A stretch of DNA of 64,000 bases from Liquidambar formosana (Eukaryota > Streptophyta > Magnoliopsida > Saxifragales > Altingiaceae): positions 5,942,909 through 6,006,908 of the forward strand of contig CM077823.1 in NCBI GenBank assembly GCA_039720395.1. The letters run 5' to 3'. Position numbers and translations under genes: made by a program. The notes under the pieces were generated by a model. It saw only the letters and a list, made by a program, of their open reading frames with translations, was not told the origin of the DNA and did no database searches. Below are positions 2,311 to 27,560 of this stretch, one piece after another (the stretch's first letter is position 1; each line of letters begins with the position of its first letter).

Positions 2311-2454
2311 TGTTAACACCCCATTTTGTACCACTTGGCACCTCAAGCCACTTTCTGAGACCCGATGATGAAGGGCAGTAGCCAACGGACCATCGCAAGC
2401 ACGCCCGAAGGACTCGTGGAGACACAGCAGGCCTTTGGCCTTGGTTCAATACCC

Positions 2455-2514
2455 CATGCACGTACGTGCATGGGATATGCACGTACGTGCATATACCATG
2501 CACGTACGATCATG
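2455..2514. repeat. Palindrome array 1 (three 21-bp units), LTR promoter
   Basis: GCACGTACG cores start at 2458, 2479 and 2500, exactly 21 bp apart. The first two units are near-perfect 18-bp palindromes (CATGCACGTACGTGCATG). The last ends GATCATG, a variant also seen at the end of other arrays. The array lies about 130-190 bp upstream of the LTR TATA box. Confidence 0.9.
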
Positions 2515-2643
2515 ACCTCTCTTTTTGAATTCCATCTCTTCCCCCCGAAATTACTTCTTACCTTATACAGCCCCCGCGCTGACAGCTGCTCAGTGGCGGC
2601 TGGGAAACCCTAGAAATCCCCGAATTAAACCCTAATCCCCGCC

Positions 2644-2651
2644 TATAAATA
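2644..2651 (+). promoter_or_regulatory. LTR TATA box
   Basis: TATAAATA in a C-rich context (CGCCTATAAATACCC) near the middle of the LTR. It is the best candidate core promoter for the sense transcript, with the start site expected about 30 bp downstream. Confidence 0.75.
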
Positions 2652-3138
2652 CCCTGCTTTCATTCAAGAGAGGGGATTGGATTTTGGCTACCAAACGACC
2701 ATTCTAAAAAATCCGATATTGGCGGCTGTGTCTACGGGAAGTCCGGAGAGTAGGATTGACGAAGGAACCACTGCTGCTGCCCGCCCTGAGGGTAACGGTT
2801 CTTAACCCTCAATTTCGTTTTCCTTCAATGATTTGATAATATTATTTAGGATATTGCATGAAATGTACATCTTATGCATCTTTTCATTTACTGCCTGAAT
2901 ACATGATGCATTTAGACTCAGCATAAATTCATTTCCACATTCATAGATCTAAAATAGGTTCTCTGTCATTTCTTTTGCATACGTCGTATCTCGATATTTA
3001 GATCTAGATTGTTTTTTATGGCTTCAAAGCATGTTTAGATAGTTTCTGTATATACCCTGATCATTCGTAGTGTCACACAGGCATGATAATTGCACAATAG
3101 GTTTAGATTTGCATTTTCGCATGGATTTCATTTAGGGT

Positions 3139-3196
3139 ATGCACGTACGTGCCTTGCATATGCACGTACGTGCCTTTCATATGCACGTACGTGCAT
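3139..3196. repeat. Palindrome array 2 (three 21-bp units), LTR leader
   Basis: GCACGTACGTGC cores start at 3141, 3162 and 3183, again 21 bp apart. A T-rich tract and CTTACAG follow directly, which would put the array at the end of a possible leader intron. Confidence 0.9.
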
Positions 3197-3645
3197 GACC
3201 TTATTTTTTTTTCAGTTTAAATCCTCTTTTCTCCCTTACAGGCAGTACAGGCAGCGTAAGTTCTCCATCGATTTCACCCCCTTTCTCTTATATGTGTGTA
3301 TATTTCTCTTTAAATCCTTTTTATCTTTCATCATTGCATGCCTTTATTTGATTTTGCCTAGTTGTCTGCATAGTGGTCAAGTTTGATTAAACCCTTTTTA
3401 ATTAAAGCCAATAAGTGTATGTGAGGCCGGATTTCAGCCGGGCGCAGACGGGTGCCTAACACCTTCCCGTCCGCATACCTTAGCTCCGAACCTTGATTCT
3501 TTGGGTGATGACGAGTTGGGCCCTTGCTAGGGGTCTATCGGTTCCCGAGGCCAAAATCGGATGGCGACTCCCTCTCCGCCCTAATCGTCCGCGGTTAGTG
3601 GCGTACTCTCGAGCCGGGCGTGGTGAAAGGACACGGCGCTCATAA

Positions 3646-3663
3646 TGGCGACTCCACTGGGGA
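3646..3663 (+). other. Primer binding site of the Tat/Ogre element
   Basis: TGGCGACTCCACTGGGGA begins two bases after the 5' LTR. Its position and TGG start fit a tRNA-primed PBS. Ogre-type elements are known for tRNA-Arg priming and this sequence looks compatible; the tRNA was not verified. Confidence 0.75.
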
Positions 3664-4619
3664 TAGAGAGCTTGACTCTGAAACATTTATTGGCTTTAAT
3701 TAATTAGGAAATTTAATTGAATAAGACCGAAATTGCACACACACGCACGATATTTGGCACTTGTTATCCCTCGATGGCAGTCTGATTGGAGACCCGGGTT
3801 CCATTTAGTTCCTATGGGCAACTCGATTCAGCACCATCAACCCACGGCCTGTGCCACTAGCCTGTAATAAGCTAGTGAGTACGCTAACGGGTCGCTCTTT
3901 GAGCGCCCTAGCCTGGGTAACCCTTGAAGAAGAAGTACCCATTGACCAACCACACTAGTGTCCCCTAAGGCCTTTGCATAGCCTTGCTTGAATGTATGTC
4001 ATATCGCATGTCATGTTGCATCCATACTCATTTGTATAGCGCGGGTACGGGACGAGGCCCACGTCGTACATGAGCTTTCTAGTTTGAGCCCAAATTGAGG
4101 GAAGATTGAGTGCTGTTGTAATGGGACCTAGGCCCATTGAAAAAAAAAGAAAAGAAAATGATGATAATGAACGAAATGGGCCTAGAATCCAAATGAGGTA
4201 CAAGGTGTGGGCATGACGGGCTCAAACGAAAAAGCTGATGGACCACGTAGACCTGCTGAGAGTTAGGAACAAGACCGCTATGATGAATGAACACAACCCA
4301 TCTAAAATTGAACATCGAAGTCCAACATCATTCTACCTAAGGCTTGATGAGTGAGAGGTAAAATAAAGTGTGATCTTGTAATTGGACTAAGCCTATCCAA
4401 GTGAAAACAATGAAATGGGCTTGGATCCAAAGTGAGTATGTGAGATGTGTGTGAACTTGTAACGGGCCAAAGGTAGAATGATGTTCGATTTTGTAAATTA
4501 ATATCTGCCCATCATAGACCCTTGGAAGATTTAGTAAACATGACAAGGCTCTAGCAATGGGTTTAGATAAGGGTTTGAAGGTATTCGGATTGGGCTAGGG
4601 GAGAAAGTTTAATAGACAT
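3664..4619 (+). other. Long untranslated leader of the retrotransposon
   Basis: About 1 kb between PBS and gag with no credible reading frame. Tat/Ogre leaders are typically long. It contains short A-rich runs (about 4140) and no palindrome arrays. Confidence 0.7.
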
Positions 4620-7600
4620 GTGCTCATTACGCTCAACTCCTGTTTCAGCAAGATTGATTCACCAGGGAGAGAAGCACCGAGTAGTGTTTGGGCCCGATCT
4701 CCGACCACTAACAGATTAAGAAGAACCCCGGCTGGAAGAATGGCAGAACAAGTGACTTTGGCTGATATCCTTGAACAGATGAGGAGCGATAGAACCGAGA
4801 TGAAGGGCTTCATGAATGAAATGCGGGACCGGGTTACTAAGCTCGAGAAAGGGAAAGGAAGAACAGAAGAATCACCTGAAACTGAGGAGAAAGGAGAGCC
4901 CAAGGTTAATGAGGAGGAGCACCCAAAGTGGGAAGACGATGACTATGAGGACTACCTGAAAAGGAAAGAAACCAAGGAAAAAGACACCAAAGTGGAAAAG
5001 TTGGCGGCAGAGAATGCTGAGATGAAAGCTCGGATGGACCAAATGCAAACAGCGTGGCAGAAATCACAAGGCATGGATGATTACATGTATTCTATGGCAG
5101 GGATTACGGCCGGCTCCAAGGTGCAACTCCCTCCGAAATTCAAAATAGCCGATTATGAAAAGTTCGATGGCACCGGTGACCCTAAACAGCATTTGCGCCA
5201 GTACTTGAGCATTGCCCGAATGAGAGGGTTGACCGCCGATCAAGTGTTGCACGCCTTCCCTTTATCTCTCTCGGCAGATGCCTCGAAGTGGTACTATGCG
5301 CTTGATCCGAAAGTCACGGACTCTTGGGAACTACTGGCTTCAGAATTTACAAACAAGTATGCGTACAACACTATGTTGGATGTTACCCTGCGGGACTTGG
5401 AAATGACTAGGCAAAAGACGGATGAGACGTTCTCAGAATTTCTGACTCGCTGGAGGGCTAAAGCTGTCAAAATGGTAAATAGGCCGACAGAAATTGATCA
5501 GATAAACATCATTTTGAGGAACCTGACACCCGTGTACTTTGATCGCATGTTGACTTCCTCTGTCATGAATTTTGAACAATTATACCAGTGTGGGACTCGT
5601 ATCGAGGATGCTATTCACCGCGGTCAGATGGATAGACAGAAGAAAGTATACGGTTCCGGTAGTGGTGGTGGAAGTGGAAGTGCTAGAGTTAGTGGGGGAA
5701 CCCAGCCACAAGCTACAGTGGGAGCCATCCAGCAGACGCAAGTAGCACCGAAAGCGCCAAGGGTATACCATGACTTAGGAGTCCCGTTGTCCAAAGCCTT
5801 GGCCAATTTGAGCAAAAGGGACTATCTGAAGCCTTTGGAACCAAGAGCACTGCCGAACCCGATTCCCTCGTATTGGAGGCAGAATGAGTTTTGCGACTTC
5901 CACCAGCGGATCGGGCATAAGACGGACAATTGCATGCGTCTAAAGAATGAAATCCAAGACCTGATTGATTCAGGTAAACTACCTCCTCCAGGCGGCGACA
6001 AGCCCAATATTCAGAACAACCCTCTCCCCAATTATCGAAATACACCGCCTCCTGCCTACATGAATATGGTTAGTGATACGAAGGCAATGGAGGATCCGTC
6101 ACAATTCATTTTTATGATCAGCATGAAGAAGGCTCCATGGGAAGATTATGATAGTGGGGAGGAAGATATTTGGGCAGAAATGAAGAAGGATTCCATGCAT
6201 CTAACCCGCTCGGGGAGGCATTACAAGCCTAATTATCTGGAAGGGGATCATCCCGGAAGAGAATTGAACCAAGAAGTAAGAGAAAGGATTGAGCAGCAAA
6301 ACGAGGAGGAGGAGGACAGGATACTGAAGCAGTTAAAGAAAACACAAGCAAGTATAAGCATTTGGGGCTTGCTGATCGCCTCAAAGAAACATCGCCAGGC
6401 TTTACTGGATGCGCTGGCAAAGAAAGAAGTACCAATGGAAACCACACCGGAGCAGGTTCTATCACTTATGGGGGTTAGCTCGGTGAGCAAGGCTGTGATG
6501 ACTTTTTCCCATGAAGATTTGCCACTTGAAGGGGCAGGGCATGCCAGGCCACTCTATGTCACGGTGGAATGTAGGGATTTGAAAATACCTGTAGTTCTGG
6601 TCGATAATGGGTCCGCATTGAATGTTTGCCCGATGCGCACCGCAACTAAGCTAGGGGTTGGCAAGGAGGACTTGATACCTTCTGTTGTGACGGTAAGGGG
6701 TTATGACAACAGCTGTTGGAGTGTGATGGGAACTTTCAAGGCCGCTTGTAAAATAGGGCCCGTTGAGTCAATGGTGGAATTCTGCGTCATGGACATTCCC
6801 GCCAACTACAACCTGCTGTTGGGAAGAACTTGGCTACACCCTTTGCAAGCTGTTCCCTCAACCGTGCACCAGAAAATAAAATTGCCTTGGGATGAAGGAG
6901 TTCTAGTGATCCATGGAGACGGAGAAATAACTGGGCAAATATCAGGAGTGAAGGAAGGAAGCGGAGAGTTGGAATGGAGAGGTTTTGAGCTGGTACAGGT
7001 GATTGAAAGGAAGGAAACTGGAAGAGAGAAGGTGTCTCCCGATTTTGGGGAGGGGGTTAGCCATATCGTGACCCATATGATGAGAAAACTGGGGTACATG
7101 CCCGGAATGGGGCTAGGCCGAAGGGGAGAAGGGATAGCTGAGTTCCCGGATTTCCACATGCAAACCAACCGGCGAGGGCTCGGATACACTGAAGAGGACG
7201 ACAAATGCGTCCCCAAGAATGGGAAAACTCTCAATGGTAATTTTGTGAAGGAAGGAGAAGATTTCCCCTATTGTGGATTTCCTGAGCCATGGATAGACCG
7301 AGGGAGCGGAGAAAGAAAGCCTGGGTTGGAGGTATTCTTTAGCGAGAAATTGAATCTGGAGGATACAGAAAGGGGAACCCTGGAAGAAGAAAATGAAGAG
7401 CGAGACTGGGCGGAAAATGTGGATCAGACAAGCTGGAAGGTCTTATTGTCACCTAAGAGCGGCGAAGAAGTGTTCTCTCTGACGGATGAAACCGTCCCTA
7501 CCAAGCTTATTGTTGTGGCTGATGGGGATACTAGCACCTGGATCTGGGAACGTGCGGCTAGGGTCACGTATGGTGTCAAGGCGATTAATAAGCCTACTCA

Positions 7601-8420
7601 GGAGAAGTCTAGGGTTGGGTCTAAGTCTGAGTCCGGGTCGGGGTATGGGTTTGAGTTGTCCACTGATGTAATTTCCAATAATTCAAAGAAATTTGATTCT
7701 GCTTACTCTGCTGTGTCACCTAACAATCAAATTGCACAAATGCATGATCTTTTAGACCCAGATGAGCTAATTAATGAAAATCAAGATGTGAAAATTGAAC
7801 CCATTAAAGAAGAGACTATCATTATTAATATAAGCACTGATGAGAAAATCAAGGAAATCCAAATTGGCTCTACTCTGTCCATGCAAGAACGCGCAGATCT
7901 TACAGCTTTGCTGCAGGAGTTTTCTGATGTGTTTGCTTGGTCGTATGAGGACATGCCTGGAATCGACCCCGCTATAGCACAGCATCACATTCCTATTAGG
8001 GAAGGAGCAAGGCCCGTCAAACAAAAACTGAGAAGAATGGCACCGGAATGGTCGTTGAAGGTTAAGGAAGAGGTGACTAAGTTATTAAAAGTGGGGTTTA
8101 TCAAAACGGTAGATCAGGCGGATTGGATAGCCAACATCGTGCCGGTACCGAAAAAGGATGGAAAGGTGCGGGTGTGCATTGACTACAGGGATCTTAACAA
8201 GGCTTGCCCTAAGGATGACTTCCCCCTACCTCACATCGATGTGTTGGTAGATAACACAGCAGGAAGCGCTCTAATGTCGTTCATGGATGGGTTCTCGGGA
8301 TATAATCAAATACGGATGGCGCCGGCAGATATGACTAAGACCACCTTCACAACTGGGTGGGGGACGTATTGTTACACGGTAATGCCATTTGGACTTAAAA
8401 ACGCCGGAGCTACATACTAG
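4620..8420 (+). CDS. Gag-protease-G-patch-RT (N-terminal part), ends at an internal TAG
   Basis: A 1266-codon frame. The first Met is at 4620, but the Met at 4740 (MAEQVTLADI) better fits the start of Gag. The retrotransposon Gag domain spans about residues 178-300 and is followed by a Gly/Ser linker and a CDFHQRIGHKTDNC knuckle near residue 435. The aspartic protease is near residue 660 with VDNGSALNV (DNG in place of DTG/DSG, as in Tat relatives). A G-patch-like segment (RKLGYMPGMGLGRRGEG) lies at about 820-860. RT begins near 1094, with VCIDYRDLNKACPKDDFPLP and the MPFGLKNAGATY block. TAG at 8418-8420 then stops the frame. The next codons stay in the same frame, so this is one nonsense substitution and not a gene boundary. 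Confidence 0.93.
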   Translation: MLITLNSCFSKIDSPGREAPSSVWARSPTTNRLRRTPAGRMAEQVTLADILEQMRSDRTEMKGFMNEMRDRVTKLEKGKGRTEESPETEEKGEPKVNEEEHPKWEDDDYEDYLKRKETKEKDTKVEKLAAENAEMKARMDQMQTAWQKSQGMDDYMYSMAGITAGSKVQLPPKFKIADYEKFDGTGDPKQHLRQYLSIARMRGLTADQVLHAFPLSLSADASKWYYALDPKVTDSWELLASEFTNKYAYNTMLDVTLRDLEMTRQKTDETFSEFLTRWRAKAVKMVNRPTEIDQINIILRNLTPVYFDRMLTSSVMNFEQLYQCGTRIEDAIHRGQMDRQKKVYGSGSGGGSGSARVSGGTQPQATVGAIQQTQVAPKAPRVYHDLGVPLSKALANLSKRDYLKPLEPRALPNPIPSYWRQNEFCDFHQRIGHKTDNCMRLKNEIQDLIDSGKLPPPGGDKPNIQNNPLPNYRNTPPPAYMNMVSDTKAMEDPSQFIFMISMKKAPWEDYDSGEEDIWAEMKKDSMHLTRSGRHYKPNYLEGDHPGRELNQEVRERIEQQNEEEEDRILKQLKKTQASISIWGLLIASKKHRQALLDALAKKEVPMETTPEQVLSLMGVSSVSKAVMTFSHEDLPLEGAGHARPLYVTVECRDLKIPVVLVDNGSALNVCPMRTATKLGVGKEDLIPSVVTVRGYDNSCWSVMGTFKAACKIGPVESMVEFCVMDIPANYNLLLGRTWLHPLQAVPSTVHQKIKLPWDEGVLVIHGDGEITGQISGVKEGSGELEWRGFELVQVIERKETGREKVSPDFGEGVSHIVTHMMRKLGYMPGMGLGRRGEGIAEFPDFHMQTNRRGLGYTEEDDKCVPKNGKTLNGNFVKEGEDFPYCGFPEPWIDRGSGERKPGLEVFFSEKLNLEDTERGTLEEENEERDWAENVDQTSWKVLLSPKSGEEVFSLTDETVPTKLIVVADGDTSTWIWERAARVTYGVKAINKPTQEKSRVGSKSESGSGYGFELSTDVISNNSKKFDSAYSAVSPNNQIAQMHDLLDPDELINENQDVKIEPIKEETIIINISTDEKIKEIQIGSTLSMQERADLTALLQEFSDVFAWSYEDMPGIDPAIAQHHIPIREGARPVKQKLRRMAPEWSLKVKEEVTKLLKVGFIKTVDQADWIANIVPVPKKDGKVRVCIDYRDLNKACPKDDFPLPHIDVLVDNTAGSALMSFMDGFSGYNQIRMAPADMTKTTFTTGWGTYCYTVMPFGLKNAGATY
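8418..8420 (+). other. In-frame TAG inside RT
   Basis: The stop lies where RT relatives carry Gln, between the GLKNAGATY block and the YVDD block. CAG to TAG is a single C-to-T change at a CHG site, the kind expected from deamination of methylated cytosine in a silenced element. Cause is inferred; the stop is seen. Confidence 0.9.
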
Positions 8421-11078
8421 AGGATGGCTACCACGCTACTCCACGATATGATGCATCAGGAGGTAGAGGTGTATGTCGACGATATGATTGTTAAGGCAGA
8501 GACTCGAGAAGGGCATTTAGAGAATCTTAGGAAGTTCTTTGGACGAATCCGGGAATACAGTCTGAGGTTGAATCCACAAAAGTGCACATTCGGGGTCACG
8601 TCAGGGAAGTTGTTGGGATACATTGTGAGTAGCAGGGGCATCGAGGTAGATCCAACGAAGGTCAAAGCAATTTTGGAAATGCCATCACCGAAAACAGAGA
8701 AGGAGATTAGGGGATTTCTGGGGCGATTACAGTACATTAGCCGTTTCATAGCCAAGTTGACCCCCACCTGTGAGCCCATTTTCAAACTGCTTAGGAAAGG
8801 GGAGCCTAAGGAATGGAATGAGCAATGTCAACAAGCTTTCGAAGCCATCAAAAGATATCTCCTGAATCCCCCGGTGCTGGTTCCTCCACGCCCTGGTAAA
8901 CCTTTGTTACTCTACCTGTCCATTTTTGAGGAAGCTTTAGGAAGCATGTTGGCGCAAGAGGATGATCGTGGTATTGAACATGCGATCTATTACCTAAGCA
9001 AGAAGCTGCAAGGTTACGAGGAGAAGTACAATGCGATAGAAAAGTCCTGTTTCGCTTTGGTTTGGGCTGTGCAAAAACTGAGGCACATTCTGCTAAATTT
9101 CGAGGTGTGGATAGTGGCAAGAATGGACCCGCTTAAATACTTGTTTGAGAAACCGGCTTTGAATGGTCGTCTATCTCGGTGGTTGATTTTATTGGCAGAA
9201 TTTGAACTTTTATATGTGACACAAAAGTCTATTAAAGGAGGGGTTGTTGCCGAGTACTGCGCCGAACACCCGATCCTGGGACATGGACTTAACGATGAAT
9301 TTCCCGACGAGAACCTTCTAGTTGTCGAGTGTGATGAGGCGTGGAAGATGTATTTCGATGGGGCTTCGAATCAGTATGGAGATGGGGTAGGGGTTTTGTT
9401 AATAGCTCCTGATGGTTCTCACATGCCGCTGTCGATAAAGTTGAACTTTCAGAACTCCAATAACACAGCAGAATATGAGGCATGTGTCGCTGGGCTAGAA
9501 GCCTTGTTGGCATTGGGAGTCGAAGAAGTGGAGGTATATGGGGATTCAGCCTTGGTGATATCTCAAGTACAGAGGATATGGAGAACCCGAGAAGAACACC
9601 TGAAGCCTTACCAAGGCTACCTAGAGAGACTGACCCAGAGATTCCGGAAAATAACTTTCACGCCCTTACCCCGAGCTCACAACCAATTCGCCGACGCATT
9701 GGCTACCTTGGCTTCCATGATTCAAATGCCCGCTGGAACCCAGATAGAGCCATTGACCGTCCAACAGAAGTTCAGACCCGCACATGAAGAGGGGATTTTG
9801 GTAATTGACGGAGAGCCAGATGATGGGCACCCTTGGTACTTTGACGTTTGGAACCTCTTGGAAAAAGGAGAATACCCGGAAAATGCCAATAAGAAGGATC
9901 GTAGGGCATTAAGGCTGTTCGCCACGCAGTTTATCATCTGCGGAGGGAAATTATTCAAAAGGTCCTATGATGGGATACACCTTCTTTGCGTAGATCGCCG
10001 CATGGGAGAAACACTCATGAGGGAAGTGCATGAAGGGGAGTGTGGGTCACACATGAATGGGAGGATGTTGGTTAAGAAGCTGCTAAGGTTGGGGTATTAC
10101 TGGACAACTATGGAAACTGACTGCGTGCAGTACGTCAGAAAGTGCTATCAATGCCAAGTGTACGCCAGTGCAAACTACATGCCGCCGGTGGAGTTGCATC
10201 AACTGGCATCTCCCTGGCCATTTTCAGTATGGGGAATAGACATCATCGGAGAGATTAAGCCATCTGCAACTGGTGGATATAAATATATCCTGGTAGCAAT
10301 CGATTATTTTACCAAATGGGTGGAAGCGGCGGCATATGTAGAATTGAAATCGAAACATGTGGCCAAGTTCGTCGAAACCAACATAATCTGCCGGTACGGA
10401 GTACCCCATGAGATTATTTCAGATAATGGAACGCACTTTGAAGATGAGGTCAAGAAGTTGTTCACAAAATTCGGTATCCAGCATCACAAATCTTCACCCT
10501 ACAGGCCCCAGACTAATGGAGCTGTGGAGGCTGCCAACAAGAATGTCAAAACCATCCTCAGTAAGACGGCAGTAACCTACAAGGATTGGGTGGAGAAGCT
10601 TCCTTATGCATTATGGGGATATCGGACGTCCGTGAGAACTTCCACAGGTGCTACGCCCTATTCATTGGTATACGGAATGGAAGCCGTATTACCCGTGGAG
10701 CTAGAAGTACAGTCTCTTAGGGTTGCGTTGGAAAGTCAGATTCCAGAGGTAGAATGGGCAAGGGAGCGGTATGAACAGCTGGCGCTATTGGAGGAAAGAA
10801 GACTCAAGGCATTGTACCATGTGCAAGGTTATCAACGACGAATAGCTCGGGCTTTCAATAAAAGGGTCAGACCGCGGAACTTGAAGGAAGGGGACTTGGT
10901 TCTTAAGGAATTTAGAGCACCTGTGTTCGATCCTCGAGGGAAATTCAAGCCCAATTGGGTGGGGCCCTACGTCGTCAAGACAATTTACCCGGGTGGTGCT
11001 GTCAAGTTAATGGATGGTGATGGGAACGAGTTGGTGAATCCAGTGAATATGGACAGACTCCGTAAATATTATGTGTAG
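8421..11078 (+). CDS. Pol continuation: RT (YVDD), RNase H, second RNase H, integrase
   Basis: The same frame as the upstream part, uninterrupted to TAG at 11076-11078. RT continues with EVYVDDMIVKA (catalytic YVDD). The pol-type RNase H follows at about 8800-9250 (YYLSKKLQGYEEKYNAIEK region). A second, archaeal-type RNase H at about 9345-9720 shows YFDGASN, NNTAEYEA and YGDSALV with its acidic residues. Integrase has a degenerate zinc-binding part (RKCYQCQ near 10140) and the catalytic D (WGIDIIG), D (ISDNGTHF) and E (GAVEAANKN). The tail near NPVNMDRLRKYYV matches typical gypsy C-termini and no chromodomain is evident. As placed it lacks its own start and would need readthrough. Confidence 0.93.
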   Translation, partial: RMATTLLHDMMHQEVEVYVDDMIVKAETREGHLENLRKFFGRIREYSLRLNPQKCTFGVTSGKLLGYIVSSRGIEVDPTKVKAILEMPSPKTEKEIRGFLGRLQYISRFIAKLTPTCEPIFKLLRKGEPKEWNEQCQQAFEAIKRYLLNPPVLVPPRPGKPLLLYLSIFEEALGSMLAQEDDRGIEHAIYYLSKKLQGYEEKYNAIEKSCFALVWAVQKLRHILLNFEVWIVARMDPLKYLFEKPALNGRLSRWLILLAEFELLYVTQKSIKGGVVAEYCAEHPILGHGLNDEFPDENLLVVECDEAWKMYFDGASNQYGDGVGVLLIAPDGSHMPLSIKLNFQNSNNTAEYEACVAGLEALLALGVEEVEVYGDSALVISQVQRIWRTREEHLKPYQGYLERLTQRFRKITFTPLPRAHNQFADALATLASMIQMPAGTQIEPLTVQQKFRPAHEEGILVIDGEPDDGHPWYFDVWNLLEKGEYPENANKKDRRALRLFATQFIICGGKLFKRSYDGIHLLCVDRRMGETLMREVHEGECGSHMNGRMLVKKLLRLGYYWTTMETDCVQYVRKCYQCQVYASANYMPPVELHQLASPWPFSVWGIDIIGEIKPSATGGYKYILVAIDYFTKWVEAAAYVELKSKHVAKFVETNIICRYGVPHEIISDNGTHFEDEVKKLFTKFGIQHHKSSPYRPQTNGAVEAANKNVKTILSKTAVTYKDWVEKLPYALWGYRTSVRTSTGATPYSLVYGMEAVLPVELEVQSLRVALESQIPEVEWARERYEQLALLEERRLKALYHVQGYQRRIARAFNKRVRPRNLKEGDLVLKEFRAPVFDPRGKFKPNWVGPYVVKTIYPGGAVKLMDGDGNELVNPVNMDRLRKYYV

Positions 11079-11250
11079 GCAGAGTCGTGACAATTTGGCA
11101 AAGTACTCAGTGCTCAAATTAATAATAATAGTTCTTTATTGATTGGGGAAAATCATTACATCTTTTCTGATGCTTATTCATTAACTCATAAGGGATTAAA
11201 AGCAAGTGCATGGGTACAATAGTTGATAGGGGTACGGGGGATAGTCAAGT

Positions 11251-11893
11251 TCATTTCTTCCTCGCCTCTGTTTCGGCCTCCGTTTCCCTTTTCCTCTTGT
11301 TTTCTTCTTCTTCCTTTTCCTCTCTCTCCATGTCAGTAAACAGCCAGTTATAGTAGGACCCGGGGGGGCTAATCACTTCAGAGGGGGTAACAGCCCAATA
11401 CACTGCCTTGCTATACCAGTCACTTTCCACGCGATTCACATGGTTGGGTTTCCAGGGGCAGGTGTAACCAAGGTGACCCCATTTGATCGGATCCTGGCGT
11501 AACCCTTGCTGACGACGGATGCGCATAGGAGAGTAGAAAGAAACCTCCTTGAGACCAATCAGCATGACGCTGTGAGGAAGGATCAGATTTCGAACAGCAT
11601 GAGAGGTCCTCCACCAAGGACAGAGCCAGCGGATGTTGTGGCAGGATATGGATTCTAACAAATCCCGGGCTTGCTCGACGTTCGGGAAGGGTTTGATGAC
11701 CTTCCTGTGACGATAGTGCTGCGGGTGATATGTCCAGATACTCATAGCAGGGTCTTCGACCAGTTTTAGGCGTTCGAACAGCTAAATCTGCATCACAAAA
11801 AGAGTAAAGATGGAAGGGTCAACAGACCATGCACGTACGTACATGGGTTATGCACGTACGTGCATGGACAATGCACGTACGATCATGGCATTG

Positions 11894-11924
<31 letters not shown>

Positions 11925-12616
11925 AGAGAAAAAAAGAGAATGAGGAAAAAATTCCGAGAAAATAAAAGAAGAAGAGAAACCTGTAGAAGGAGGGGGCTGC
12001 CGCCGAAGGAGAAACTGTCGCTTCGCGCCACGCGATCGAGCCCATTCAGAGTATCTGCCAAGACAACCATGCTGGGGTTGAAATCCTTGATTTCCGGGAT
12101 CATGCGCACAATAAAAGTCTCCAAATTCGATGACTCATCTCTGAAAAAGAGGACGGCAAGAGCACAGAAGCACGCCGCGCGCAGGTAATAGACCCGAGCC
12201 TGGCCAGCGAGAGGCATGGGACGGGACATGAAGTATTCAGCGAGTTTCGCCACGTCCACTCTGAAACTCGTAGTCCACCCTTGCACCAGTCGCACAGAAA
12301 GGCCTAGGAACTGGGCCACCTCGGCAGCAGGGACCTTGTCAATCGGGGGAAGGAGCAAGCCGTTGAAGCTAGTCCGCCCTATGATACCGCCAAAATCTTC
12401 GAGTGTGGGGCACAACTCGTTCAGATTGAATCGGAAGACGTGGCGGGTTGGCTTCCAGTATTCTGTAGCAACGAGAAGAAAAGTATAGTTGATTTTCACC
12501 CGACAGTAGTCAAACAAGCACGGGAGGCCGAAAGCTTCTTTGAAATCATCCCGAGCTCGGTTATCAAAGGACAAGAGCCATCGTTTTATGTCTTTGACAA
12601 ACTTAGGGTCTTCCAT
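11251..12616 (-). CDS. Antisense gene B: PMD/DUF7745-like protein, two exons, 388 aa
   Basis: Exon 1 is 12616-11981 (start MEDPKFVKDI, 212 codons) and exon 2 is 11781-11251 (177 codons with stop). The intron is GT...TAG and phase 0. Using the earlier CAG acceptor would create an immediate stop. EYWKPTRHVFRF near residue 52 and the CPTLEDFGGIIG and GGSPLLLQ-LFERL blocks resemble the plant mobile domain/DUF7745 group. Several of those proteins came from transposons, and the host members MAIN and MAIL1 act in silencing. The C-terminus is a highly charged Glu/Lys/Arg tail. A palindrome array lies in the intron and another upstream of a TATA-like site. Exact family needs a profile search; the exon model is inferred from frame continuity. 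Confidence 0.75.
11828..11887. repeat. Palindrome array 3 (three 21-bp units), intron of antisense gene B
   Basis: Cores start at 11831, 11852 and 11873 (21-bp steps). The last unit carries the GATCATG variant as in array 1. A long A run (11894-11921, poly-T on the gene's strand) sits beside it. Confidence 0.9.
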
Positions 12617-12655
12617 CGTAGGATTTCAGTGGAGAAGAACGAAGAAGGGGGCTCG

Positions 12656-12663
12656 TTTTATGC
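12656..12663 (-). promoter_or_regulatory. TATA-like site of antisense gene B
   Basis: CATAAAAC on the minus strand, about 40 bp before the ATG at 12616. That is close for a plant leader, so this is a weak candidate. Array 4 lies 50-140 bp upstream of it. Confidence 0.35.
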
Positions 12664-12713
12664 AGAAAAGTTGCCAAATCAACGAAGTGCGAGAAAAAGG
12701 AAAGAAATGGACC

Positions 12714-12792
12714 CATGATCGTACGAGCATGAGCCATGCACGTACGAGCATGGTCTGTGCACGTACGAGCATGGCCTATGCACGTACGTGCC
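12714..12792. repeat. Palindrome array 4 (four 21-bp units), promoter side of antisense gene B
   Basis: Cores start at 12717, 12738, 12759 and 12780, all 21 bp apart. This is the longest array. The GATC variant is at the low-coordinate end here, reversed relative to arrays 1, 3 and 8. Confidence 0.9.
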
Positions 12793-13014
12793 CAGACCCC
12801 TTTTTTCGTATTTCTCATCCCCTTTTCTCGATTTTATGGTCTTGTTGCTGTCGTGTGAAGCCTTTTGGGGTGATCTCCCTGTATTAAACGGCTTGCTATT
12901 TATCCTAGCGCAATGGAAAAAGAAAAATGGTGAACATAACGACATACAAAAAGGGGGAAAAGGAAAAAAAATATAATAAGCCATGTTTGATGTATCACAG
13001 GAGTAACAGTCATA

Positions 13015-13092
13015 TACAGAAAGGGAAGGAGAAATGAGTACATGTCCAAAATTTACAGAAAGGGAAGGAGAAATGAGTACATGTCCAAAAAT
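13015..13092. repeat. 39-bp tandem duplication in the 3' flank of antisense gene A
   Basis: TACAGAAAGGGAAGGAGAAA starts at 13015, and the same sequence minus its flank recurs 39 bp later. It lies just beyond the stop codon of antisense gene A. Confidence 0.8.
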
Positions 13093-13126
13093 AAATAAGT
13101 ATCCCCAAATATCCGAAACAAATACA

Positions 13127-15163
13127 TCAACGCGGAACATATAATGGGGTCTGGGCAGGAGAGGCTGGCGGGCTATCGTCACCGTCATCACCACCGTCAT
13201 CACCACCATCACCCCCATCGCCGTCATCGCCGTCGCCATCATCCTCGTCAGCCCCGAAGCCATCCCAGTCCTCCCCAGCAGGAGCCTGCTCCGCAATCAC
13301 TAACCTGCGAGAGAGAGACGTGACCATGACCTTCAGGCTCCCCACCATCCGCAAAAGTGTCGAGAACTCCTCACGGGTGAGCTGCGAGTAGAAAAGCAAG
13401 GGGCAATCGTTAGGACATGCATGCTTTATTTGTATATATGCGTAAAAACTAACAAATGCAGGAACTTGGAAACTCACCGGCCTAGTACCCTCAGCCATCG
13501 GGTACCCAATGCACCTGTTCAGCCTGGGGATATCCTCCTCCATGGCTAAATCAGGTGTGACATGGAAAGGCACGCTCCACCCCGGCATGATGGGGGCCAG
13601 TCCAGCTGGCGCATCTGCAGCAGGAGCAGCCTGTGGAAAGAAGTCAAGCACAGTTGGTAAAAAGAAAGCAGAGATGGGAAATTAGCAAGACTCAGAAAAG
13701 GGTATACATACCGGCGCAACAAAGATGCTGCCCATCAACCGCTCCCGCGCAAAAGAGGCATAATCGATCTCCTCGGCAGATAAGCGATCTGTATAAGGGA
13801 TCATGGCCCGCCAGGCAGCCAAGTCACTCGATGTCGCCTCGGCAGGGATGGCGACAAAACGGGGAGGATCTACTGGGACCGGAGGACCACCCGCGCCCAC
13901 ATCAGCAATCTGCCATACCACCCTCTCCGCGAGGTAGAAGGAGCGGACCCCTGGGCACTCGAACACCGTGGATAGGGTGGAGAGTGTCAAGGCAGCAGCA
14001 TCCCACTCAGCAGGGGCGCGTGCGGGGGTGCCCTCCCAGGGGCGCGGGATGATCTGTGGAAAAGCAGTAATAGGGTGAATACATGAGTATAATGCTATCA
14101 ACCGTACCGTTAAAGTGAGATAAAACTTACCCGGTCGACGGTCAGCTCGTCCAGGAAGCGACGGGAGCTCCAATAGTCGTGCTTGTCGACGGGGGAATCT
14201 GGGTTCCCGCGGAAGTACCGACCTGCCCAAAGCTGCGCAAGTAGATATGATAAGAAACCAATATGGAATGACAGTTAAGGAAAAGGAGAAAGGAAACAAA
14301 AGAGGAGGAAAAGGAGGGGATATATACTGCCCAGACCCGCCAGTGGCTAACCATGGACTGGACAGCCATCCGACTCAGCGAGTCCATAGCTGAGATCACG
14401 TGGCCGTACATCGCCGCTCCCCAGTTGAACTCGCGGGCCCTCCCCAAGTCCCTCAGAGCCAGCAACCAGCCAAAAGGGACCGTCTGCGCTGCATTCGGGA
14501 CTAGATAGCCCCCTATCAGAAACAGCAGATACCCGCGCGCCATCCGGATCCGCTGAGCAGCTGTACCCTGCCCCTGGGTGGACATACGGTCATATACATC
14601 CAGGATGAAGATGGAGGCGCTGTCGTACTCAATCCCCAATAACTCCTGGGAGAGTCTCTCCCTCTCACTCTCATCGTGGTCAAAAGGAAGTGGGAGGCCA
14701 TCCATGCGCAGACCCGTGAGGCGGTAGAAGTCGTAGGGAGTCAGGGTCAGCTCCCGACCCGCAATATGGAAAGTATGGGTGGTGTCCCACCATCTCTCAG
14801 CCATACAGTGAACGAAAGCCCGGTCACTATCGTCCACCAATCCCGAGATCACCGTCCCGAAACCGGCACCGGTAACCAGGGCCTTCGTCTCCGCTGTGAG
14901 ACGAGCCCACCACGCCTTCGCGTTCACCACGCCTCCACGGGTGACAGGCAGCTTCGGCAGCTGTTACACAAGGAGAAACCAGGTAAGCACAGCACAGGTA
15001 TGTGTATTTGCAGCAGAATAAAGAGAAAAAAATTCGAAAATAAGGAAGGAAGCACAATAGGCACGTACGTACAGGCCTTAGGCACGTACGTGCATCAGGC
15101 AGGCACGTACGTGTCTGTGACCTTTTTTGCCTCTTTTTAAACCCACCCCACACTCGTTGCACG

Positions 15164-15209
<46 letters not shown>

Positions 15210-15817
15210 CCAAGCACGTACGTGCATCAGGCAGGCACGTACGTGCATCAGGCAGGCACGTACGTACATTAGCCTGTTTGCCCCTTTGATTCCCAGTTAC
15301 ACCCACACGAATCCCTGAGGTTCCAACCCCCTCATGTCTGTTTCAATCCTCGGAGAGGCTCGAATGCGTCCTATTTCACGATCAACTGAAAGGAACTGGG
15401 TTAAGTCCGGATAAAGACACGTGCGTACGCACACGACGCACGTACGGGCATTCGGTACGTACGTACGTGCCTTTAGCTGGGTTTTTTCCAGTTCTTCTTC
15501 CATTTCGGTACCATCCCACCAAATCCCCAGATTTTACCCTCTCACATTCGTTTTCATAAGAACCCAAAGTCAAGGTTTTTGTTTTGATAACCGAAAATGA
15601 AATAAACATTGCGGAAATGAAAACTTACTCGGCCTAGCGCAGCAAGATGGGAGGCGTGCTCGGTGGGACGGAGGAGAATCCCACCCTCACTACGTCGGAG
15701 GCGAGGCTGGGGGCGCCATCTCTGAATCGCAGGCCTCCCTAGCTCGTCGGGGTCCCTCGCCGGTGCGGCACCAGATGTGCTCGCCTTCGCCGACGTGCGC
15801 TGGCGTTTGGGTGCCAT
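13127..15817 (-). CDS. Antisense gene A: plant mobile domain protein, six exons, 557 aa
   Basis: Exons on the minus strand: 15817-15629, 14960-14328, 14232-14131, 14053-13712, 13630-13478 and 13381-13127 (63, 211, 34, 114, 51 and 85 codons). Every intron is GT-AG and phase 0, and no stop interrupts the joined frame. The start is MAPKRQR. The PMD signature is clear: ERWWDTTHTFHIAG near residue 120, then LTPYDFYRLTGLR. The tail is an acidic Asp/Gly stretch of near-repeated GATGAC codons. PMD proteins are known from transposons and from host silencing factors (MAIN, MAIL1). Intron 1 carries three palindrome arrays and the promoter side a fourth. Additional antisense frames are known in Tat relatives such as Grande and Retand. 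The gene is much better preserved than the other genes here. Confidence 0.85.
15060..15115. repeat. Palindrome array 5 (three 21-bp units), intron 1 of antisense gene A
   Basis: Cores start at 15061, 15082 and 15103 (21-bp steps), with AGGC in the spacer of each unit. Confidence 0.9.
15165..15205. repeat. About 41-bp A homopolymer between two palindrome arrays
   Basis: An almost pure A run (poly-T on the gene A strand) inside intron 1, flanked by arrays 5 and 6. A similar run sits next to array 3. Its length is likely unstable or imprecisely assembled. Confidence 0.85.
15212..15270. repeat. Palindrome array 6 (three 21-bp units), intron 1 of antisense gene A
   Basis: Cores start at 15214, 15235 and 15256 (21-bp steps). 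The spacers (ATCAGGCAG) match those of array 5, so the two arrays are duplicates on either side of the A run. Confidence 0.9.
15418..15471. repeat. Palindrome array 7 (degenerate), intron 1 of antisense gene A
   Basis: CGTACG cores at 15424, 15441 and 15458/15462. One step is 21 bp and one is 17 bp, and the last unit is extended to GTACGTACGTACGTGC. It is the only array with irregular spacing. Confidence 0.8.
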
Positions 15818-15920
15818 GGGTATGCTCGGGTGAGATCGAGAAGCAGGAGGTGAGGTTGGGAGGTGTAAAGTCTCTTGGTCTGTAAGAGTGTACGTAAGGA
15901 TTATGGGACGTGGGTGCGAG

Positions 15921-15926
15921 TTTATA
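15921..15926 (-). promoter_or_regulatory. TATA box candidate of antisense gene A
   Basis: On the minus strand it reads GCCTATAAACTC, about 105 bp before the ATG at 15817, a normal plant promoter distance. The context resembles the LTR TATA box (GCCTATAAATACC). Confidence 0.6.
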
Positions 15927-16014
15927 GGCGTTTTCGCGCCTTTTGAACTGCCCCATAACCATGCATTGAAAACGACGCCGTTTAGGGAGTCCCTTTGAAT
16001 ACCCACAAGAACCG

Positions 16015-16075
16015 GATGCACGTACGTGCATTGGGCCTGATCATGCGAGCATGACCGAGGCTCGTGCGATCATGG
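16015..16075. repeat. Palindrome array 8 (one good, two degenerate units), promoter side of antisense gene A
   Basis: Units start at 16018, 16039 and 16060, exactly 21 bp apart. Only the first core is CGTACG; the others read CATGCG and CGTGCG. The terminal GATCATG variant is present. It lies about 90-150 bp upstream of the TATA candidate. Confidence 0.8.
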
Positions 16076-16150
16076 ACTTCAATTGTCGATTTATTTGCGG
16101 TTCGACTCGGTAATCAACCAATCCAAACTCATTTTTGAAATACCCCTCTA

Positions 16151-17300
16151 ATCGATCTGGATTTAATTCAAAATTAAATCAACCCGGATTTAATTGGAAT
16201 TCGAAATTAAATCAACCCGGATTTAATTAGAATTCGAAATTTAATCAACCCGGATTTAATTGGAACTCACCCCGCGAATTTCGATTCGAGACTTAATCGA
16301 TCTGGATTTAATCCGAAATTAAATCAACCCGGATTTAATTGGAATTCGAAATTTAATCCACCCGGATTTAATTGGAATTCACCCCGCGAATTTCGATTCG
16401 AGACTTAATCGATCTGGATTTGATTCGAAATTAAATCAACCCGGATTTAATTGGAATTCGAAATTTAATCAACCCGGATTTAATTGGAATTCACCCCGTG
16501 AATTTCGATTCGAGACTTAATCGATCTGGATTTAATTCGAAATTAAATCAACCCGGGTTTAATTGGAATTCGAAATTTAATCAACCCGGATTTAATTGGA
16601 ATTCACCCCGCGAATTTCGATTCGAGGCTTAATCGATCTGGATTTAATTCGAAATTAAATCAACCCGGATTTAATTGGAATTCGAAATTTAATCAACCCG
16701 GATTTAATTGGAATTCACCCCGCGAATTTCGATTCGAGACTTAATCGATCTGGATTTAATTCGAAATTAAATCAACCCGGATTTAATTAGAATTCGAAAT
16801 TTAATCAACCCGGATTTAATTGGAACTCACCCCGCGAATTTCGATTCGAGACTTAATCGATCTGGATTTAATCCGAAATTAAATCAACCCGGATTTAATT
16901 GGAATTCGAAATTTAATCCACCCGGATTTAATTGGAATTCACCTCGCAAATTTCGATTCGAGACTTAATCGATCTGGATTTGATTCGAAATTAAATCAAC
17001 TCGGATTTAATTGGAATTCGAAATTTAATCAACCCGGATTTAATTGGAATTCACCCCGCGAATTTCGATTCGAGACTTAATCGATCTGGATTTAATTCGA
17101 AATTAAATCAACCCGAATTTAATTGGAATTCGAAATTTAATCAACCCGGATTTAATTGGAATTCACCCCGCGAATTTCGATTCGAGGCTTAATCGATCTG
17201 GATTTAATTCGAAATTAAATCAACCCGGATTTAATTGGAATTCACCCCGCGAATTTCGATTCGAGACTCAATCAACCTGGATTTAATTGGAATTTACCCC
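16151..17300. repeat. 112-bp tandem repeat array with a 560-bp higher-order unit
   Basis: The landmark CACCCCGCGAATTTCGATTC recurs at 16268, 16380, 16492, 16604, 16716, 16828, 16940, 17052 and 17164, all 112 bp apart. A shortened unit is at 17243. Diagnostic variants recur five units apart: AACTCACC at 16268/16828, TCCACCCGG near 16380/16940 and CGAGGCTT near 16604/17164. So a five-unit block duplicated as a whole. Each unit holds smaller AACCCGGATTTAATTGGAAT subrepeats. Tandem repeats before the 3' LTR are characteristic of Tat/Ogre elements and are known to seed satellite DNA. Confidence 0.95.
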
Positions 17301-17548
17301 ACGAACTTCAAAATGCTGGATTCCCCGGAGGCCACGCATTACCTTCCGATTGCCCCGGAAAGGTATCACCATACACTATGAACTACGGTAGGTCTGATCC
17401 TCGTTAAGAGGTACGTAGGAAGTAGGGAACTTCCCCCCGATCCGACCTTTTCATACATGCATTTGCATCATTTAAGGTTTGCATGAGCCAATTGGTCCAA
17501 AATGAGTGTTTCCGGGTCTTTTAATTTTGTTCACTACACGAGCAAAAT
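17301..17548 (+). other. Non-coding segment between the repeat array and the polypurine tract
   Basis: About 250 bp with a short fold-back around TTCCCCGGAGG and GCCCCGGAA. No frame and no palindrome array is seen. Confidence 0.6.
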
Positions 17549-17560
17549 CAAAAGAAGGGG
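17549..17560 (+). other. Polypurine tract
   Basis: AAAAGAAGGGG followed by CAAAC directly before the 3' LTR. It is the expected plus-strand priming site. Confidence 0.85.
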
Positions 17561-17712
17561 CAAACTGTTAACACCCCATTTTGTACCACTTGGCACCTCA
17601 AGCCACTTTCTGAGACCCGATGATGAAGGGCAGTAGCCAACGGACCATCGCAAGCACGCCCGAAGGACTCGCGGAGACACAGCAGGCCTTTGGCCTTGGT
17701 TCAATACCCCAT

Positions 17713-17753
17713 GCAATGCACGTACGTGCATATACCATGCACGTACGATCATG
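17713..17753. repeat. Palindrome array 9 (two units; one lost relative to the 5' LTR)
   Basis: Cores start at 17718 and 17739, still 21 bp apart. The 5' LTR has three units here. The two LTRs were identical at insertion, so the unit was lost (or one gained in the other LTR) afterwards. Confidence 0.9.
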
Positions 17754-18377
17754 ACCTCTCTTTTTGAATTCCATCTCTTCCCCCCGAAATTACTTCTTAC
17801 CTTATACAGCCCCCGCGCTGACAGCTGCTCAGTGGCGGCTGGGAAACCCTAGAAATCCCCGAATTAAACCCTAATCCCCGCCTATAAATACCCTGCTTTC
17901 ATTCAAGAGAGGGGATTGGATTTTGGCTACCAAACGACCATTCTAAAAAATCCGATATTGGCGGTTGTGTCTACGAGAAGTCCGGAGAGTAGGATTGACG
18001 AAGGAACCACTGCTGCTGCCCGCCCTGAGGGTAACGGTTCTTAACCCTCAATTTCGTTTTCCTTCAATGATTTGATAATATTATTTAGGATATTGCATGA
18101 AATGTACATCTTATGCATCTTTTCATTTACTGCCTGAATACATGATGCATTTAGACTCAGCATAAATTCATTTCCACATTCATAGATCTAAAATAGGTTC
18201 TCTGTCATTTCTTTTGCATACGTCGTATCTCGATATTTAGATCTAGATTGTTTTTTATGGCTTCAAAGCATGTTTAGATAGTTTCTGTATATACCCTGAT
18301 CATTCGTAGTGTCACACAGGCATGATAATTGCACAATAGGTTTAGATTTGCATTTTCGCATGGATTTCATTTAGGGT

Positions 18378-18435
18378 ATGCACGTACGTGCCTTGCATAT
18401 GCACGTACGTGCCTTTCATATGCACGTACGTGCAT
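18378..18435. repeat. Palindrome array 10 (three 21-bp units), 3' LTR
   Basis: Cores start at 18380, 18401 and 18422. It is the counterpart of array 2. Confidence 0.9.
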
Positions 18436-18883
18436 GACCTTATTTTTTTTTCAGTTTAAATCCTCTTTTCTCCCTTACAGGCAGTACAGGCAGCGTAAGT
18501 TCTCCATCGATTTCACCCCCTTTCTCTTATATGTGTGTATATTTCTCTTTAAATCCTTTTTATCTTTCATCATTGCATGCCTTTATTTGATTTTGCCTAG
18601 TTGTCTGCATAGTGGTCAAGTTTGATTAAACCCTTTTTAATTAAAGCCAATAAGTGTATGTGAGGCCAGATTTCAGCCGGGCGCAGACGGGTGCCTAACA
18701 CCTTCCCGTCCGCGTACCTTAGCTCCGAACCTTGATTCTTTGGGTGATGACGAGTTGGGCCCTTGCTAGGGGTCTATCGGTTCCCGAGGCCAAAATCGGG
18801 TGGCGACTCCCTCTCCGCCCTAATCGTCCACGGTTAGTGGCGTACTCTCGAGCCGGGCGTGGTGAAAGGACACGGCGCTCACA

Positions 18884-18888: not shown

Positions 18889-19440
18889 AAGACTAACAAT
18901 ATAATGGAATGCCCAACAAAAAAGATAAAAAAGAAGAGAGTGCAACAAATGAACAACTGTGAGATGGCAAGCCCAGAAGATGAATCTAACACAGCTTTTG
19001 TGATAGAAACAAACACTATCACCATTCCCAAGATGGAACAATAAGTCATTATTGTGGAAACTACTAGAAAGTTCTTTAAATTCCTATAATTTCCTCTCCA
19101 CGAACCCCATAAATGGATCAATATCATTGCTGCAAAGCAACAAAAGGCTACTAAATCAAGGCAACAAGAATGAATTAAAGGCCAAGTTTTTTCTTAAAAT
19201 GGCCAAGCCTTGCTTAGAGTCCTGACTCTTATATCCGTCAGGCACGATAAATCCCATAGCAAAGGTGACTGTGGCAATTATTGTCCCCCCTAATAGTGAA
19301 ACGCTAGATCTGTCCTTGAATTGATATTTCCATCCCTTTTCTATTGGGTCAGTTGTGTCTTCTATCTCCAGTTCATTCACATCACTATATGTTGCTCTTC
19401 TATGTAGTCTCTAGATAACCATCTTTGCATGTGGTCAAGG
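18889..19440 (-). pseudogene. ACD6-like ankyrin/PGG-domain remnant
   Basis: On the minus strand, 19380-19156 reads a short frame with VNELEIEDTTDPIEKGW, then a membrane segment GGTIIATVTFAMGFIVPDGY and QGLAILRKN. This is the signature of the PGG domain that ends ACD6-type ankyrin membrane proteins. 19127-18889 continues with two more hydrophobic segments after a frame break. The ankyrin repeats are missing and stops interrupt the frame. The Tat/Ogre element inserted at the 3' end of this remnant. A second copy in opposite orientation lies at 26795-27560. Host ACD6 genes act in defence; this copy is dead. Confidence 0.8.
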
Positions 19441-26794: not shown

Positions 26795-27560
26795 AAGGTC
26801 TATGATTTGCTCCACCTAAAATTGGTGCATGTTGGTCCTCAACCTCAAGCAAAGATAATTATCCAGAGATTACATAGAAGAGCAACAGATGCTGAAGTGA
26901 ATGAACTTGAGAAAGAAGACACAACTGACCCAGCAGAAAAGGGATGGAAACATCAATTTAAGGAAAGATCCAACGTACATTTTATTATTAGGGTGACTAC
27001 TATTGCCACGGTCACCTTTGCAATAGGATTTACAGTGCCCGCGGCTATAAGAGTCGAGACTCAAAGCTAGAAGAGCAACAGATGCTAAAGTGAATCAACT
27101 GGACATAGAAGACACAACTGACCTTGCAGAAAAGAGATGGAAATATCAATTTAAGGAAAGATCCGGTGTACGTTTCATTATTAGGTGTGACTATTATTGC
27201 CATAGTCACCTTTGCAACAGGATTTACAATGGCCCTGCAGCTATAAGACTCAGAACTCTAAGCAAGGCATGGCCATTTTAAGAACAAACTCAACTTTCAA
27301 TTCTTTCTAGTTGGTTAATTCAACAACCTTTTGTTGCACTGTAGCAACGATATTGATCTATATATGGGTTCGTGGATAGAAAATTACAGGATTTTAAGGA
27401 ACTGTATGGTAACTTCCAAAGTACTGACCAATTCTTCCATCTTGAGAATGGTGATAGCATTTGATTATGGCACAAATGTTTTGTTAGATCCATCTTTTGG
27501 ACTTGCCATCTGCTTTTTTATCCATTGTATTGGGCTTTCTAGTATATGGTAGAACTAGGT
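26795..27560 (+). pseudogene. Second ACD6-like PGG-domain remnant with an internal duplication
   Basis: 26807-27066 reads HVGPQPQAK, RRATDAEVNELEKEDTTDP and ATVTFAIGFTVP, which is the PGG region. 27068-27260 repeats the same segment (KVNQLDIEDTTDLAEK), so an about 190-bp piece is duplicated in tandem. 27331-27552 then gives the distal hydrophobic part (NDIDLYMGSW... SILRMVIAF), matching the minus-strand copy at 18889-19440. Frames are broken and the ankyrin repeats are absent. A pseudogene inverted with respect to the first remnant. Confidence 0.78.

Follow-up and report, generated by a model that had tools for sequence, protein, structure and literature searches.

Phased palindrome arrays in a Liquidambar formosana retrotransposon: candidate docking sites for the element's own PMD-group proteins

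A 64,000-bp stretch of the Liquidambar formosana genome (assembly GCA_039720395.1, contig CM077823.1, positions 5,942,909 to 6,006,908 of the forward strand), referred to here as the window, contains a Ty3/gypsy retrotransposon bounded by long terminal repeats (LTRs), in which 30 palindromic units of 18 bp are found, arranged in ten groups, all within the limits of the element (2311-18883; Table 1). The element also contains two genes, here called A and B, both on the minus strand and located between pol and the 3' LTR. The interpretation which we favour, and which we place just on the probable side, is that the arrays are sites for the proteins of these two antisense genes, members of the plant mobile domain (PMD) group, which would dock on them as dimers and keep three promoters active against silencing. 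The words forming the arrays are likely docking sites for element-encoded regulators, because in a distant relative of the element the word is changed at the matching places; beyond this, we infer the identity of the binder (A, B or both), its dimerisation and an activating or anti-silencing action.

In the proposed mechanism, A, B or a pair of both would occupy the palindromes in dimeric form; neighbouring units, spaced by 21 bp or about two helical turns, would sit on one face of the DNA; and bound arrays would keep the LTR, A and B promoters, together with the first introns, unsilenced or directly active.

Sequence and phasing of the arrays

The presence of ten arrays of an 18-bp palindrome, claimed in the initial annotation, was confirmed, with the palindrome starting 3 bp before the cores listed there. 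The half-site, placed around a central CGTACG, reads C/T-A-T-G-C-A-C-G-T; in the 44 half-sites compared, position 7 never varies, and one or two deviations occur at each of positions 4, 8 and 9. A search of the window with CACGTACG, allowing at most 1 mismatch, revealed 60 matches versus 8.2 expected, a number equalled in none of 100 shuffles; of the matches located off the arrays, two lie beyond the element (29936 and 44631) and four elsewhere inside it. The arrays are confined to one retrotransposon, as had been claimed: CGTACG is absent from the 47.5 kb of window DNA outside the element, and is also absent from gag-pol (4741-11078), while a weight matrix built on 22 units gave no score above 10 in the window outside the element (best score 9.2). 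This matrix, and the comparison of cores and spacers described below, are based on the arrays other than the loose one in gene B intron 1 and the two in the 3' LTR.

The step between units is exactly 21 bp in nine arrays. As had been claimed, it is kept by the degenerate units upstream of gene B; the loose array is degenerate and contains extra copies of CGTACG out of register. Comparison between arrays gave an identity of 1.00 at positions 4, 7, 9, 11 and 12, and of 0.30-0.32 at the three positions of the spacer; similarly, neighbouring units within the same array are identical at 161 of 180 sites in the inner twelve positions, and at 18 of 45 spacer sites. Had a tandem duplication occurred recently, spacers would be as alike as cores. 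Since the letters of the spacer are random and its length is fixed, constraint appears to act on the step as well as on the core. CpG retention within the units was also considered, and dropped as evidence because the units of the relatives had been chosen by a matrix rewarding CG.

The ten arrays do not represent ten independent events, because two of them are 3' LTR copies and two pairs can be aligned: the U3 array with the array of the gene A intron (91.8% identity across 61 bp), and the leader array with one of the gene B intron, in inverted orientation (84% across 76 bp).

According to the initial annotation, an array is located 50-190 bp upstream of each TATA or TATA-like site. This is the case for the LTR (129 bp) and for gene B (89 bp). 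Near the array of gene A only a CATAAA is found, about 52 bp away, and an ATAAAT at 12903 could be an alternative promoter, which would place the "upstream" array in the leader. The remaining arrays are located, as had been stated, in the leader or in first introns, the latter being predicted.

Two poly-A runs, of 42 bp (15164-15205) and 28 bp (11894-11921), adjoin the gene B and gene A intron arrays, respectively, at a distance of 6 to 7 bp, and T-runs come after several other arrays. Poly-A tracts disfavour nucleosomes.

Copies in the host genome and the CA-to-TG difference

Further copies were searched in one genome, that of the host (717,955,123 bases in 370 contigs). The exact 18-mer was found at 218 places, and its reversed control at none. 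Twenty of these places were sampled as 10-kb stretches, taken non-randomly as the first matches listed on contigs C1, C2 and C3, ten of them being picked for closely spaced matches, with most pairs 15-18 kb apart; an LTR match of at least 100 bp was present at all 20. In these stretches the weight matrix trained on the window detected 211 units, and 133 of the 135 neighbour distances up to 60 bp were equal to 21, the others being 17 and 42; 33 different spacers occur among the 133. Two refuting conditions named in the initial annotation, a motif common outside this family and the absence of the 21-bp phase from other copies, were not encountered within this sample. When plain CGTACG was used on the whole CA group, named after the commonest dinucleotide at half-site positions 5-6 and comprising the window element and 24 relatives, 121 of 137 distances were equal to 21, the others being 4 (four times), 17 (seven times) and 42 (five times). 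CA-type matches in viral contigs and prokaryote genomes amounted to 1 and 5 stretches, and were taken as chance.

The position relative to the promoter is also maintained. The spacing between the U3 array and TATAAA was evaluated in 19 of the 21 family-1 loci (the window 5' LTR and 18 of the 20 stretches, leaving out L022 and L025): it is 128-131 bp in 18 of the 19 LTRs and 152 bp, one step more, in L020. The constancy extends to L024, L026 and L027, in which little of the LTR can be aligned. The array upstream of gene B is located 88-90 bp from TATAAA in all seven family-1 rows. In other copies, such as L011, L013, L016, L018 and L020, the middle of the LTR is unmatched to that of the window, yet these copies also contain arrays stepped by 21 bp; in L024-L027, where about 245-475 bp of the LTR align in one or two pieces, such arrays are still found.

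Four intermediate relatives, L031-L034, show an identity to the window of 71-80% in exon 2 of gene B and of 67-76% in exon 1 of gene A. Gene B intron 1 contains a single array in each of the four, arrays are located upstream of gene A in all of them, and the gene A intron contains arrays in three (in L034 gene A aligns only in part); the remainder of their gene B intron, arrays and poly-A runs apart, is unmatched to the window.

A more distant element, represented by the end of L035 and by L039, shows 60-64% identity in gene A and 37-56% in gene B, over the aligned pieces. Two arrays are found in its LTR; for each antisense gene, arrays are located both upstream and within an intron, which for gene B is intron 1. 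The palindrome is similar to AATGTGCGTACGCACATT: CGTACG is kept, and half-site positions 5-6 are mostly TG, not CA. Counting only units with an intact CGTACG, in the CA group CA is present in 345 of 476 half-sites and TG in 7, while in the TG group TG is present in 56 of 84 and CA in 4. At all six array sites of L035/L039, TG outnumbers every other dinucleotide, with fractions of 4/6 and 6/6 in the LTR, 4/6 upstream of gene A and 5/6 in the gene A intron; in L035 the U3 array is located 137 bp from TATAAA. A second LTR lineage, in L029, contains TG in 17 of 18 half-sites, and a CA-type LTR within the same stretch contains CA in 10 of 12. In L043, a family-2 copy with 80% identity, a TG-type array is present in the gene A intron, with CGTACG at 77, 98 and 119. 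When L039 was used as query, the matches to gene A (best 150 of 4771 candidates) formed two clusters, with identities of 75-100% and 62-65%.

The arrays of L035 were at first candidates for a property of the PMD gene contained in the same stretch. This assignment was rejected, because they belong to a neighbouring element continuing into L039, and because L040 and L041, which flank two further loci of that PMD gene, contain no CGTACG.

A factor encoded by the element and co-evolving with it would call for the same dinucleotide change across sites, and this pattern favours such a factor; the change may have spread through copying of arrays inside the element. The main alternative, which we regard as rather unlikely, is that a host transcription factor recognizing a GTAC or ACGT core binds the arrays, and that the element uses it as an enhancer. 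Candidates would be proteins of the SBP/SPL type, whose core is GTAC, or of the bZIP type. The units of both groups were read by means of CGTACG, which contains the SBP core, and a location near promoters at a near-constant distance from TATA would suit any activator. A shared host factor does not predict, however, that TG should become the leading dinucleotide wherever the second family has an array. A further point against it is that the exact 18-mer adjoined these LTRs at 20 of 20 sampled places. Because a shared host factor need not change the dinucleotide at matching sites, a binder encoded by the element is favoured.

The antisense proteins and the weighing of interpretations

The models of genes A and B were built from splice consensus. 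By its profile matches, B scores 53.9 bits against PMD (PF10536), passing the cut-off of 34.9, while A reaches 30.4 bits, just under it, and passes the cut-off of DUF7745 (31.0 versus 26.0 bits). On these profile scores, both A and B belong to the PMD group. Comparison of the exons with eleven relatives gave ratios of nonsynonymous to synonymous substitution rates (dN/dS) of at most 0.15 in 35 of 39 computable comparisons (4 of 43 values were not computable, and dS above about 1.5 is saturated), a pattern by which both genes are under purifying selection. The PMD exon of gene B has at least 150 matches in the host genome (best 150 of 3498 candidates), and about two thirds of the matches listed are stop-free.

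Other searches were negative or weak. No homologue of protein A, the only one searched, was found at E 0.001 among 3347 candidates from a set of 5.8 billion proteins, and A has no match to DUF1985 in Pfam; residues 1-274 of gene B gave no confirmed match in viral contigs; a sequence search of PDB gave none for A and five weak matches for B (E 0.17-0.85).

VANC, from the VANDAL elements of Arabidopsis, is, by analogy, the closest working model. According to the available part of its description (Hosaka 2017, PMC5735166), VANC binds a short motif which forms tandem repeats within introns and within intergenic and terminal non-coding regions; this motif differs between VANDAL21 and VANDAL6; VANC proteins remove silencing; and DUF1985 appears as one of two domains in the drawing of these proteins. 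As far as this description goes, the present system is similar in having an element-specific motif (the specificity being that of the 20 sampled places) in tandem arrays within non-coding parts, introns included, in the difference of the motif between related families, here CA versus TG and mixed at one site, and in an element-encoded protein, here the proposed binder. It differs in that VANDAL elements are Mutator-like, while this one is an LTR retrotransposon with two antisense genes, and in that its words are palindromes at a 21-bp step near predicted promoters, the DUF1985 match is under cut-off and the binding is putative. The analogy with VANC had been drawn in the initial annotation, and is partly supported: PMD-group proteins, the sub-threshold DUF1985 match, the motif beside this LTR at all 20 sampled places, the 21-bp phase of other copies and the mostly switched motif of a related family agree with it, though some relatives lack arrays at some of the sites. 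On this analogy, the element is most likely an LTR retrotransposon with a system of the VANC type.

A broader model, put forward tentatively and held to fall a little short of probable, is that PMD is a DNA-recognition family. Antisense PMD proteins would read CGTACG plus a family-specific dinucleotide on each side, with a two-turn pitch, at their own promoters; families would escape cross-control by switching the dinucleotide; and VANC would represent a single branch of a larger PMD/DUF1985 group with an anti-silencing function, present in both classes of transposable elements. If the model were true, sequence-specific self-protection from silencing would not be peculiar to Mutator-like transposons, and would also serve an abundant class of retrotransposons. 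As a code of cis-motifs differs between two families of one genome, the question of function is directly testable by a binding swap.

In the accessible portions of the literature, the function of the antisense genes of plant gypsy elements and of PMD is described as open (PMC11963269, PMC7264820, PMC5418596). PMD-A1 and PMD-A2 proteins are encoded by Gypsy elements (Ikeda 2017, PMC5418596), and PMD is present in 57% of Ogre elements (Neumann 2019, PMC6317226): the element described here likewise contains PMD-group genes inside a Ty3/gypsy element, and the consulted parts of both papers give neither a cis-motif nor a function for an element-encoded PMD protein. Ikeda and colleagues speculated that PMDs captured by Mutator-like element (MULE) transposons serve anti-silencing (PMC5418596). 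Retand elements carry antisense TRP28 genes (Vicient 2025, PMC11963269), and their tandem repeats are called, in the part of that paper available, highly variable and of unknown function; unlike them, A and B match PMD or DUF7745, and not PF04195. The DOWN motif, CATGCAGTTT, is linked to the host PMD proteins MAIN and MAIL1 in the excerpts of PMC7156037 and PMC9899485, and CATGCA is common to this promoter motif and to the CA-type arm. The overlap may be due to chance, since the TG-type half-site lacks CATGCA; for the same reason it was dropped as a main argument. No description of such arrays was found in the literature, covered mostly as titles and openings of abstracts, and the TG-type letters were not searched.

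Several observations weigh against the proposal that the arrays serve the element's own proteins as anti-silencing sites. Arrays can be copied within one element, so that a shared motif change could spread without selection, and the independent events are fewer. In the TG group the step is looser, with 21 of 31 distances equal to 21, four equal to 20 and six between 37 and 46; in L039 the array upstream of gene B is mixed (TG in 3 of 8 half-sites, CG in 2 and CA in 2) and TG accounts for only 12 of 28 half-sites in the gene B intron; in L043, the sequence read upstream of gene A (about 360 bp) is devoid of CGTACG. TATAAA was not found in five of seven gene A rows, that of the window included, the exceptions being L014 (at 53 bp) and L039 (at 64 bp); it is also missing from 1,908 bp around the TG-type LTR of L029, and upstream of gene B in L039. 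In L031-L034, the DNA read upstream of gene B, about 0.8-1 kb in each, yielded no unit with a score higher than 9. CGTACG is absent from the stretches L036, L037 and L038, containing other PMD genes, and from the flanks L040 and L041; a PMD alone does not, therefore, imply arrays. At the protein level, the DUF1985 match of gene B reaches 21.7 bits, under the cut-off of 35.1, a stop is present in 11 of 43 aligned exons of the relatives, and two single-sequence fold models have a mean predicted local distance difference test (pLDDT) score of 42 and 37, useless for structure search. Finally, the sign of the control could be repression, because MAIN and MAIL1 act in silencing in the part of PMC5418596 available.

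Binding of the arrays by the PMD proteins as such a repressor, a copy-number brake or a latency switch, is improbable, and somewhat more so than a host factor. It accords with the need for MAIN and MAIL1, both host PMD proteins, in silencing (PMC5418596, as far as available), and with the location of arrays beside the predicted A and B promoters, as in autoregulation. The described element-encoded functional relatives, the VANC proteins, act instead to remove silencing (PMC5735166, in the part available), and the 150 or more matches of gene B show past spread, though not the sign of the control.

It is very unlikely that the arrays work as RNA or DNA structures, such as hairpins, a source of small interfering RNA, or splicing or packaging signals, rather than as protein sites. 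Perfect palindromes could form hairpins, transcription would extend over the leader and intron arrays, and the 3' end of the LTR RNA would include the U3 array; the array upstream of gene B falls, however, outside the predicted gene B transcript, and the fixed step and near-constant TATA distance point to double-stranded DNA. Neutral short tandem repeats of the type common in Ogre and Retand elements can be nearly dismissed, despite the frequency of such repeats in these elements (PMC11963269, PMC6317226, in their available parts), the 112-bp array of the window element (16198-17243) and the loss of some array sites in relatives, in view of the random spacers set against a fixed core and step and of the arrays kept where the adjoining DNA is unmatched.

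Element structure and other loci

The coordinates of the arrays and of the other features of the element are reported in Table 1.

Table 1. Features of the element, in window coordinates; promoters, introns and exons are predicted
Feature	Position	Strand	Remarks
LTR retrotransposon, Ty3/gypsy	2311-18883		16.6 kb
5' LTR	2311-3644	+	1,334 bp; self-BLAST and sequence
U3 array	2455-2514		three palindromes at a 21-bp step; TATAAA at 2644 lies 129 bp downstream
LTR promoter TATAAA (predicted)	2644-2649	+	
Leader array	3138-3197		three palindromes; inside LTR, downstream of predicted promoter
gag, G-patch and first part of reverse transcriptase (RT)	4599-8420	+	one frame; open reading frame (ORF) list, Pfam
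Remaining RT, RNase H, second RNase H-like domain (RVT_3), integrase	8421-11078	+	Pfam
Gene A, 388 amino acids	11254-12616	-	exons 12616-11981, 11781-11254 (predicted splice sites)
Array in predicted gene A intron	11828-11887		
Gene A upstream array	12714-12794		four units; CATAAA at 12662 (minus)
Gene B, 557 amino acids	13130-15817	-	six predicted exons
Gene B predicted exons	15817-15629, 14960-14328, 14232-14131, 14053-13712, 13630-13478, 13381-13130	-	
Gene B intron 1 array	15058-15117		
Gene B intron 1 array, another	15211-15270		
Gene B intron 1 loose array	15414-15473		degenerate
Gene B TATAAA (predicted)	15921-15926	-	89 bp from upstream array
Gene B upstream array	16015-16074		one strong and two degenerate units, step kept
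3' LTR	17566-18883	+	1,318 bp
3' LTR U3 array	17715-17753		two units
3' LTR leader array	18377-18436		

The element is flanked by a 5-bp target duplication, GCTGG, found before the 5' LTR and after the 3' LTR. The 3' LTR differs from the 5' LTR by eight substitutions, all transitions, and by a 16-bp deletion within the U3 array, which for this reason has two units; given that the pair differs by these changes only, the insertion is young. In this otherwise young copy, the RT domain is interrupted by an in-frame TAG at 8418-8420.

The order of RT, RNase H and integrase, the second RNase H-like domain, the PMD extra gene, the large size (16.6 kb) and the 5-bp target duplication place the element among the Ogre/Tat-like non-chromovirus Ty3/gypsy elements, some of these features being what we take to be markers of the group. 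A Mutator-like DNA transposon does not fit, as the element has LTRs, RT and integrase; PF04195 (TRP28), expected for Retand, is matched by neither A nor B. Scans with Rfam, at gathering thresholds, and with ARAGORN gave no matches.

The 112-bp tandem repeat mentioned above, present in 9.3 copies, occupies the 3' part of the element. Its CpG observed/expected ratio is 2.55, versus 0.84 for the whole element, and it contains no palindrome units. In L031 and L032, repeats of similar appearance have periods of 51 and about 91-103 bp.

Among the other PMD loci, L036 (G000:C15:29832600-29839200) contains an ORF for a MULE transposase adjoining the PMD ORF, which fits the reported capture of PMDs by MULEs. 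L038 (G000:C5:22662300-22668900) contains a 696-amino-acid ORF and a 404-amino-acid ORF with a Med9 match under cut-off. In this locus the 7-mer GGCCGAW is dispersed in 21 copies on both strands over 6.6 kb, versus 0.84 expected, and falls also within the ORFs, while other stretches contain at most 4 copies per 10 kb; it may represent a second PMD-linked motif system, lacking a tandem arrangement. A cluster of stop-free PMD matches at G000:C15:5576544-5610003, four of them nearly full length and with the best family scores of the genome, possibly corresponds to host PMD genes.

Downstream of the element, the window also contains a pair of inverted repeats (18962-19402 and 27068-27511), showing 80% identity across 447 bp.

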